Shown here in pieces: positions 4,493 to 45,838 of a stretch of 64,000 bases of DNA. The position numbers and the translations under genes are program-made. Where the stretch lies: positions 626,752-690,751 of the forward strand of contig AZLU01000003.1 of NCBI GenBank assembly GCA_002224055.1, given 5' to 3'. Source of the stretch: Pezizomycotina sp. ARF18. Lineage: Eukaryota; Ascomycota. Numbering within the stretch: position 1 is the stretch's first letter; each line of letters starts with the position of its first letter. The notes beneath the pieces are model-generated. The model ran no database searches and was not told the DNA's origin. It saw only the letters and a program-made list of their open reading frames with translations.

Positions 4493-4499
4493 TATATAA
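4493..4499 (+). promoter_or_regulatory. TATA box upstream of the tRNA gene
   Basis: TATATAA ends 32 bases before the first base of the tRNA. Upstream TATA elements assist Pol III on tRNA genes in some fungi such as Schizosaccharomyces pombe. Here it may matter more, because the internal B box of the tRNA is split by an intron. The spacing would also suit a Pol II start. Confidence 0.5.
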
Positions 4500-4566
4500 C
4501 CAAAATCGCCGGGAAGCCGCCATCTCAAACGGGGATGTGGTCTAGGGGTATGATACACCCTTCGCA

Positions 4567-4581
4567 TCGTTAAGATGACTT
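4567..4581 (+). other. Canonical anticodon-loop tRNA intron
   Basis: Fifteen bases (TCGTTAAGATGACTT) lie directly after A37, the standard site for introns removed by tRNA splicing endonuclease. The exact edges can slide by a base because T occurs at both ends. Confidence 0.75.
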
Positions 4582-4601
4582 TGGGTTAGGTCCGGGGTTC
4601 G

Positions 4602-4663
4602 GTATGTTCAATTCTCACCACCAGCACCAAATTTGTCTGCAATTACTAACATTCAAATCGTAG
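4602..4663 (+). other. Spliceosomal-type intron inside the tRNA T-loop
   Basis: The insert begins GTATGT and ends CGTAG. It has an exact TACTAAC branch site at 4644-4650, 13 bases before the end. Its 62-nt length falls within the range of the protein-gene introns in this window (56, 64, 67, 70, 71 nt). Excising it restores TTCGATT, a consensus T-loop, and rejoins a consensus B box. All three splice signals are textbook for ascomycete mRNA introns and are not features of introns removed by tRNA endonuclease. Confidence 0.8.
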
Positions 4664-4681
4664 ATTCCCCGCATCTCCATA

Positions 4682-4691
4682 TTTTTTTTTT
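4682..4691 (+). terminator. Pol III T-run terminator
   Basis: Ten T residues start three bases after the discriminator, the usual Pol III termination signal. It suggests the locus descends from, or still is, a Pol III gene despite the split B box. Confidence 0.6.
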
Positions 4692-43741: not shown

Positions 43742-45838
43742 TCAAGGATGCCTGACAATTCCGGGGGCATCGATATCTCCGGGGTCTGCGCGGATGCCAA
43801 CGACCTCTGCGGCATTCTTTGACGACGACATCCTTCTCCTCCTTCATGAACGCTGCAGTTGGGAAAACCGTTCATGTTAGCTTTCTCCAGCAGTTCATTT
43901 ATTTTTAACAAAGGAGTGGAAATTATTGGGGATACTTACGGAACGCCAAAACCTCCCTGATGCTGTAATGGTTCGTCAGGAACATCACGATCCTGTCAAT
44001 ACCCATACCCCACCCACCGGTCGGCGGCAGACCGTACTCCAAGCTAGTGCAGAAGTTCTCGTCGATGAGCTGCGCCTCGTCGTCTCCCTGGTCCTTCTGC
44101 CTCGCCTGCTCCTCGAACCGCAGCCTCTGGTCGAAGGGGTCGTTCAACTCCGTGTACGCATTCACGATTTCCTTCTTGCAGACAAACGCCTCGAAGCGCT
44201 CGCAGAGGCCAGCGTGGTCGCGGTGGTACTTGGCGAGCGGCGACATCATCTGCGGGTGGCCCACGATGAAAGTCGGGTTGATGCAATTTTCCTCGATGAA
44301 CTCGCCGACGAGCTTGTCGAGCATGCGGGCGTTGGTCAAGGGTGGCGTGCAGTCGATCTTGAGCTCCGCCAGCAGGTTCTTGAGAAACTTGTTCGTCTCC
44401 ATGGTGTGCAGGTCTTCGCCCTTGGGGAACTTCTTGCCCGTGCACCGCTCGAGCTCGGGGATCATCTCCACGCGCTTCCACGGCTTCTCCCAGTTGACGT
44501 CGTATACTTCGCCGGTTTGGGTCGTGAACTTGGTCTTGTAGCCGCCGGTAACATGCTTGACCATGCCGGAAACGAGGTCCTCGGTGGTCTCGAGGACATC
44601 GTACATGTCCGCGTACGCCCAGTAGAATTCGCAGGTCGTGAACTCCGGGTTGTGCGTGAGGTCGATGCCTTCGTTGCGGAACTGCCTGCCGATTTCATAC
44701 ACGCGGTCCAAGCCGCCGACGATGAGCATCTTCAAGTACAGCTCCGGAGCGACACGCATGAACAGGTTCATGTCGAGCTCGTTATGGTGGGTAATGAACG
44801 GCTTGGCCGTCGCTCCCCCGGCGATGGCGTTCATCATCGGCGTCTCGACTTCGACAAAGTCCCTCTCGTCGAAGTAGCGGCGGACGTAAGAAATAATCTT
44901 GGAGCGGGTGATGAACGTCTCCCTCGTCCGGCTGTTCATGATGAGGTCCAGGTAGCGCTGGCGGTACCGCGTCTCCTTGTCCTGCAGGCCGAAGTGCTCC
45001 GTCGGCAGCATCCTCAAGCTCGGTGACAGGAGGATGACCTTCTTGGCGTACACTGACAGCTCGCCGGCGTCTTCGCCTTCCTTCGCACCCTTCGGGTTGG
45101 TATGTCCCGGATGGCCGACGACTCCGATGATATCACCGCGGCGGAGCGGCTCGTGCTCCGTGACGAAATCACCCTCGCAGTTCGCCGCAGAAGCCATAAT
45201 CTGCACCCTGTTTCCGTCGCATCGGATATCGTAGAACCTCAGCGAGGTGCCGAAGCTGCGGCTGCCCATTATCCTACCGCCAAGGAAATTTCATCTTCCT
45301 TGACCTCCTCTCCGGGCTTGAGGTGGGCGTACTTGGACAGGACGTCGGGGATCTTGTCCTTGACGTGGAACTTGTGCGGGTACGGGTTCGGCTGCTTGGT
45401 CTGGCGGAGGTTGTTGATGTAGCGGGAGCGGATTTCGAAGTATTGCTGCCAAGATGCGACAAGGAAAAGAAAAAAAAAATTTAACTTCCAACCCTCATGC
45501 GAAGGAGTGGTATATTAACAAAGGGAGCCATACGTTAGGCGTCAACTCAGCTTCCTCCGCGCTCTTATCTACGAGCTTCTTCTTCGCCGGACCCGATGGC
45601 TCCTTCGCCGACTTAGCTGCCGCCTTCTCTGCCTGTGTAACAAGCTTTGTTAATAATTGTTCGCATGTGTTAGTGTGGGGTCTATTGGAAGCTTCAGCAG
45701 ACAGACCTTCTTCCTCTCGTTCTCCCTCTGCTTCTCTCTCCTCTTCAATTCTGTCTTGGAGATCATTTCTCCGGTAACGGGGTCCTTGTGGAGGTTCTTC
45801 GCCGCCTCACCGGCTGCCGCTGAACTCGAATCGGCCAT
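43742..45838 (-). CDS. KRS1: Cytosolic lysyl-tRNA synthetase
   Basis: Class IIb synthetase that charges tRNA-Lys. Exons (complement): 45707-45838, 45534-45632, 43940-45445, 43742-43852. The N-terminus is hydrophilic ([20 protein letters not shown], then [17 protein letters not shown]), with no mitochondrial leader. The anticodon OB-fold runs [20 protein letters not shown] to [16 protein letters not shown]. Catalytic blocks: ETPMMN (motif 1), [20 protein letters not shown] (motif 2), [14 protein letters not shown] (motif 3). Motif 3 runs into IREVLAFPFMK across the last intron. The large exon is open for about 450 codons. One G appears missing in a GG pair near 45284, splitting [13 protein letters not shown]. 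Exon 1 ends at an unusual GTCTGT donor. The C-terminal 30 residues are uncertain in frame. Confidence 0.95.

Follow-up and report, generated by a model that had tools for sequence, protein, structure and literature searches.

A tRNA-Ala(CGC) gene in three exons lies on the + strand at 4531-4679 of the window (the whole 64,000-nt stretch of DNA analysed), as read directly from the sequence, and its T-loop is interrupted by a 62-nt intron with the anatomy of a spliceosomal intron. We consider it very probable (about 0.88) that this is a functional nuclear gene transcribed by RNA polymerase III (Pol III), that each of its two introns is removed by its own machinery, and that it is one of a set of at least 14 genes. 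In the mechanism that we propose, spliceosomal introns would have invaded the nuclear tRNA gene set, and Pol III would transcribe the tRNA-Ala(CGC) gene, with a B box inside the intron recruiting TFIIIC, so that introns that break the B box would bring its replacement. In vivo, the 62-nt intron at 57/58 would be removed by the spliceosome and the 15-nt intron at 37/38 by the tRNA endonuclease (Sen complex) plus ligase. The T arm would form after splicing and 3' maturation would follow; this order is expected, since there is no T arm until the intron is out. The gene has the following features:

4493..4499, + strand: TATATAA, a possible upstream TATA element, 38 nt 5' of the tRNA
4531..4566, + strand: exon 1, the acceptor 5' strand, D arm and anticodon arm up to position 37 (direct reading, ARAGORN)
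4538..4554, + strand: A-box region TGGTCTAGGGGTATGAT (exact match)
4567..4581, + strand: canonical tRNA intron of 15 nt, after position 37 (ARAGORN on the spliced sequence)
4582..4601, + strand: exon 2, from position 38 to T-loop position 57, with the B-box left half GGTTCG at its end (direct reading, ARAGORN, junction test)
4602..4663, + strand: spliceosomal-type intron of 62 nt, T-loop 57/58 (GT-AG, branch motif, exact junction)
4602..4607, + strand: 5' splice site GTATGT (direct reading)
4605..4615, + strand: B-box-like TGTTCAATTCT, intronic, proposed as a substitute for the split Pol III B box (the gene's best B-box score, 11.0 bits)
4644..4650, + strand: branch-point motif TACTAAC (direct reading, pattern search)
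4661..4663, + strand: 3' splice site TAG (direct reading)
4664..4679, + strand: exon 3, from T-loop position 58 to the discriminator A73 (direct reading, ARAGORN)
4682..4691, + strand: T10 run, likely Pol III terminator (direct reading)

Standard finders miss such genes: ARAGORN called no tRNA on the window as it stands, Rfam at its gathering score returned nothing there, and at E up to 10 it gave four matches between 4400 and 4800, none of them a tRNA. Once the 62 nt are taken out, ARAGORN calls a tRNA-Ala(cgc) with a 15-nt intron; the acceptor stem has G3-U70 and the anticodon stem a single C27.U43 mismatch (both read by eye), in agreement with the first-pass annotation, which had described a nearly perfect tRNA after removal of both introns. 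The proposal of a spliceosomal-type intron in the T-loop was likewise borne out by the GT-AG ends, the branch motif and the exactness of the junction: tRNA structure alone permits two slide-equivalent junctions, and one of these is GT-AG. The pattern GTATGTN{10,40}TACTAACN{3,30}TAG has a single match in the window; 100 shuffles gave a mean of 0.01 matches. The insert also splits the B box, as had been claimed, exon 2 ending in GGTTCG and exon 3 beginning at T-loop position 58. The alternative that had been offered as a refutation, that 4602-4663 is random sequence in a decayed copy, conflicts with the exact junction and with 13 further genes of the same intron anatomy, and on these grounds both a random insert and a pseudogene were rejected for the window gene. 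Our results go beyond that annotation in two respects: the phenomenon is genome-wide, and the intron of the window gene has a B-box match of its own.

A genome-wide set of intron-bearing tRNA genes

The window is part of contig C3 in a 46.4-Mb assembly, and a partial tRNA survey of this assembly yielded at least 14 tRNA genes with 16 spliceosomal-type introns, located in the T arm or the anticodon stem. The 14 genes cover ten anticodons and eight amino acids (the intron positions and the AAT and Ile-TAT anticodons are our own readings):

Ala-CGC, the window gene: intron at 57/58
Arg-ACG, two copies (L023, L062): intron in the T stem, before position 53
Pro-AGG (L041): introns at 31/32 and in the T stem
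Pro-AGG (L063): intron at 28/29
Asp-GTC, two copies (L143, L145): intron at 53/54
Ser-AGA, two copies (L147, L152): intron in the T-loop near 59/60
Ile-AAT: intron at 53/54
Glu-CTC (L021): intron at 31/32, 60 nt
Elongator Met: intron at 57/58
Arg-TCG: intron at 57/58
Ile-TAT (L160): introns before the T stem and at 57/58

All the introns are 59-76 nt long and GT-AG as annotated (16/16). The branch motif is CTAAC in 14 of them and TTAAC and TTAAT in the remaining two, and by the script's count over the 16 introns it lies 10-20 nt upstream of the 3' splice site. Such short introns with a CTAAC branch motif would suit a fungus, as the first-pass annotation had supposed. Before splicing, ARAGORN recognised two of the 14 genes and typed both wrongly; after in-silico splicing it recognised 13, Ile-TAT being the exception, and its types were those of our labels save for Ile-AAT, read as gat because the canonical intron was placed differently.

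Candidates came from the Rfam tRNA family and from B-box, A-box and intron patterns, and genes were rebuilt by acceptor pairing plus a downstream T run, or by eye; 19 nuclear tRNA genes without such introns, including Gln-TTG (L057), served as references. The B-box pattern gave 213 matches (control 127), and among the 100 matches listed all those on nuclear contigs were fetched and scanned. A T-loop-intron pattern gave 12 matches (control 6), namely four tRNA genes, three matches that are not tRNA and five not fetched; one of the three is an intron of an isovaleryl-CoA dehydrogenase gene. A further intron pattern gave 10 matches (control 6): two known tRNA loci, a lone T-arm 3' exon (L027, C3:405215, + strand) and the rest, which were scanned by script. 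This exon has GCTACTAACTATCATTTACAG in front of it and T runs behind it, and by eye no 5' tRNA part lies upstream. Arg-TCG and Ile-TAT were located by a pattern requiring GTRNGT and CTAAC, so their motifs are no independent evidence. The counts omit two unclear loci (L022, L035) and three tRNA-like sequences (L107, L113, L114; 181-291 nt) whose acceptor and T arms match and which hold long inserts, possibly tRNA-derived repeats. One contig is rich in tRNA genes (G000:C50, 231,088 bases) and is probably a large mitochondrial genome.

The junctions were also sought from tRNA structure alone. In Ala, Asp L145, Ser L152, Ile-AAT, Met and Arg-TCG this left two or three slide-equivalent junctions, one of them GT-AG in 6/6 cases, where we estimate by hand a chance of about 1% per gene; GT-AG solutions, one or two, also occurred among the 63 structural ones of Arg L023 and the 10 of Pro L041. 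The strict test, which did not include Glu L021, gave no GT-AG solution for Arg L062, Asp L143, Ser L147 and Ile-TAT, because their exons are at least one base short.

The signals are those of mRNA introns of this genome. The lysyl-tRNA synthetase (LysRS) gene of the window has an in-frame intron GTAAGT..GCTAAC..CTGCAG (by eye), and the isovaleryl-CoA dehydrogenase gene, on contig C92, has an intron GTATGT..CACTAAC..TTACAG, whose removal joins a protein that aligns gap-free to the PDB homolog 4kto; since these two in-frame mRNA introns share the motif, the tRNA introns appear to use the genome's mRNA signals. The first-pass annotation had called the 62-nt insert exactly like the mRNA introns of the window; the closeness in motif held against the two in-frame introns, and "exactly" was too strong, the sequences not being identical. 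The LysRS gene is of cytosolic type and has introns (- strand, window 43926-45290 plus flanks); by eye, a G run that lacks one base, just ahead of the long open stretch, seems to break the frame.

Split B boxes and the transcribing polymerase

The position of the intron decides the fate of the internal promoter. GTTCRANNC stays whole downstream of an intron that lies in the T stem or at 53/54, and introns at 57/58 or 59/60 cut the B box, which affects 6 genes. With a B-box matrix built from the 19 reference genes, whose own boxes score 10.3-18.1 bits (8.5-17.8 leave-one-out), the best match fell inside an intron in 5/6 genes with a split box versus 0/8 genes with an unsplit one (Fisher 0.003, for a test conceived after seeing the data). 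The scores of the five are 11.0 for Ala (TGTTCAATTCT), 11.0 for Arg-TCG, 10.0 for Met, 13.8 for Ser L152 and 13.3 for Ile-TAT, the highest intronic score in the eight uncut genes being 8.6, and in all five the match lies 3-6 nt from the 5' end of the intron. In the case of Ile-TAT, the match is in the upstream intron and the cut is made by the downstream one; the sixth split gene, Ser L147, has a weak match of 6.9 across the junction. Scores of at least 10.0 occur at 22 of 127,980 places on both strands of the window, that of the Ala intron included. The Ala gene thus has an A box, a T10 run, a split natural B box and an intronic B-box-like match, and we infer that this match may act as a replacement B box. 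TATA-like words between -30 and -54 were also considered as a full substitute and rejected as not specific: they precede 9/19 reference genes and 6/14 intron-bearing genes, two of the latter having had less than 60 nt of upstream DNA in this count.

The most serious alternative is that the introns are spliceosomal, but that Pol II transcribes the genes, by themselves or within longer transcripts, and that the intronic B-box matches go back to the common origin of a few duplicated introns. The spliceosome normally works in coupling with Pol II, and the introns of Ala and Met are the most similar unrelated pair (66%), so that the box may indeed be common to several genes by shared descent of some introns and not by selection; such descent would not contradict the use of the box as a promoter. 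Against this alternative, the intronic box is found in five genes for five amino acids, once in an intron other than the one that splits the box. T runs begin at most 21 nt downstream of 14/14 genes (a T run having served as a filter in several of the gene rebuilds), and T5 runs are absent from the introns: 0/16, versus 2/7 of the mRNA-like introns of the window, which are pattern matches and not all proven introns, and 13% of random window segments. The figures for T4 runs are 1/16, 5/7 of the same pattern matches and 32%. The absence of T5 is what Pol III read-through would require, although it is weak evidence alone (by hand, the random rate gives it a probability of about 0.11; the sample is small). 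U6 is a precedent for the spliceosomal splicing of a Pol III transcript, and in S. pombe its intron has a B box as well. We regard the Pol II alternative as unlikely.

Transcription by Pol III, with splicing by both machineries, leads to a wider reading that we regard as probable. In this lineage, spliceosomal introns would have come to occupy the nuclear tRNA set widely, translation would depend directly on the spliceosome, single precursors would need both machineries and the B box would have moved out of the mature RNA; an intron that breaks the promoter would persist thanks to a substitute B box supplied by an intron.

Paralogs, short exons and possible gene decay

In the case of Glu-CTC, L021 without its 60-nt intron aligns to the paralog L144 with no gap at the junction, so that L144 is a precise empty site. 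Comparison of the other paralogs separates exons from introns. The two Arg-ACG genes are 99% identical in their exons and 58% in their introns, which occupy the same site, and the two Ser-AGA genes 96% and 56%, respectively, when unrelated introns have a mean identity of 54% (spread 4). Being hardly more alike than unrelated introns, those of Arg and Ser have either drifted far or been gained separately, and separate gains at one site could explain them. The Asp introns are 74% identical (exons 93%). Those of Pro-AGG L041 and L063 are 64% identical, their anticodon-stem sites being three bases apart and their 3' end common to both, and look as if one intron had slid. As to copies of an introner or other repeat, the search covered GTTCAATYCYCAC, a motif chosen from the tRNA introns: it has 11 matches in the genome (control 5), of which four lie in tRNA introns and seven, by eye, show no tRNA.

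These comparisons bear on a second alternative, that the set consists of pseudogenes, with intron-like DNA lying in redundant, disused tRNA copies. Several facts would fit it: (i) intron-free copies exist of Glu-CTC (L144) and of Ile-AAT (L158, without the T-arm intron), and an Ala-AGC gene (L104) has no spliceosomal-type intron. (ii) Next to L144, about 200 nt off and on the opposite strand, there is a Glu-CTC 3' half with a related 31/32 spliceosomal-type intron and no recognisable 5' half. (iii) The exons are at least one base short of a full tRNA in 5/14 genes (Arg L062, Asp L143, Ser L147, Glu L021 and Ile-TAT L160), the T stem of Glu L021 being one base shorter than that of L144. The missing bases may reflect decay of these copies or assembly error; the latter is plausible, since a G run in the window's LysRS gene likewise seems to lack one base (by eye).

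The other side weighs more heavily. The Arg and Ser exons are conserved while their introns differ. In the case of the A-box patterns, which are blind to the T arm, 22 matches (controls 12, 3 and 1) comprised 15 tRNA genes and 7 places without a tRNA; spliceosomal-type introns are present in 5 of the 15, among them both Asp and both Ser-AGA genes located in this way. A pattern built on the Ala/Pro A box gave 11 matches (control 14), of which three are tRNA genes, the window gene and two Pro genes, all intron-bearing, and the other eight are one-mismatch matches that were not fetched. The mature Ala body matches only itself in the genome in a BLAST-type search, which would miss diverged or split copies, and a pattern search for another Ala gene (6 matches, control 3) found none. 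Decay of redundant copies is thus a quite improbable account of the set.

The weakest alternative, that the tRNA endonuclease cuts out the T-arm inserts at sites other than its usual one, on the model put forward for red algae, has parallels in the ectopic introns of Cyanidioschyzon, whose bulge-helix-bulge (BHB) motifs seem to guide cleavage, and of nucleomorphs (as described in parts of PMC4090602), but is barely credible here, with 16/16 introns GT-AG with a branch motif and a strict BHB central helix (4/4 pairs) in 1/16 (Ser L147), or 2/16 with one base of slack, at a chance of 0.024 per place. The window insert itself, at 57/58, forms 1/4 pairs of the strict helix (3/4 with one base of slack), which upholds the earlier statement that it is unlike the introns cut by this enzyme.

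Comparison with known tRNA and small-RNA introns

In the textbook view, tRNA introns are cut by the endonuclease, and in the B box of a tRNA gene promoter and T-loop overlap in a fixed way. If the genes described here work, (i) tRNA genes would be open to colonisation by spliceosomal introns, (ii) Pol III precursors would be regular substrates of the spliceosome, which could work at a folded tRNA body, and (iii) a B box in an intron would uncouple the promoter from RNA structure. The system makes testable both the entry of introns into structured RNA genes and the action of two splicing machineries on one substrate. We found no prior report of spliceosomal introns in nuclear tRNA genes among the titles and abstracts listed from the open-licence literature (subscription papers and preprints lying outside this scope), nor is there anything on them in passages of PMC13149111, PMC8362101 and PMC2695483. 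According to the part of PMC4090602 that deals with such cases, non-canonical eukaryotic tRNA introns are rare, with examples in nucleomorphs and a red alga, and where a single gene among many synonymous ones has an insertion in the D or T arm, it is usually regarded as a pseudogene.

The canonical eukaryotic tRNA intron, located at 37/38 and processed by the Sen endonuclease and the Trl1 ligase, has its counterpart in the window gene at 4567-4581. The 62-nt insert differs from it in lying outside 37/38, in its GT-AG ends and TACTAAC, and in having no BHB. The ectopic introns of Cyanidioschyzon merolae and of nucleomorphs resemble those described here in their position outside 37/38, including the D and T arms, and in occurring several per gene; however, BHB motifs seem decisive in C. 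merolae, whereas the introns here are 59-76 nt long with spliceosomal signals, and those of the Guillardia nucleomorph are 3-24 nt long, with a splicing mechanism left unexplained (all from the same part of PMC4090602). There is also a likeness to small structured non-coding RNA genes: according to PMC5832005, no small structured RNAs other than U3 and U6 were known in which an intron is often present. As in the fungal U6 snRNA, which is made by Pol III, and U3 snoRNA, mRNA-type introns are found here in genes of small structured RNAs. In contrast to U6 and U3, the hosts are tRNA genes, of ten anticodons, and most of them have a second intron, in the anticodon loop, in the same precursor.
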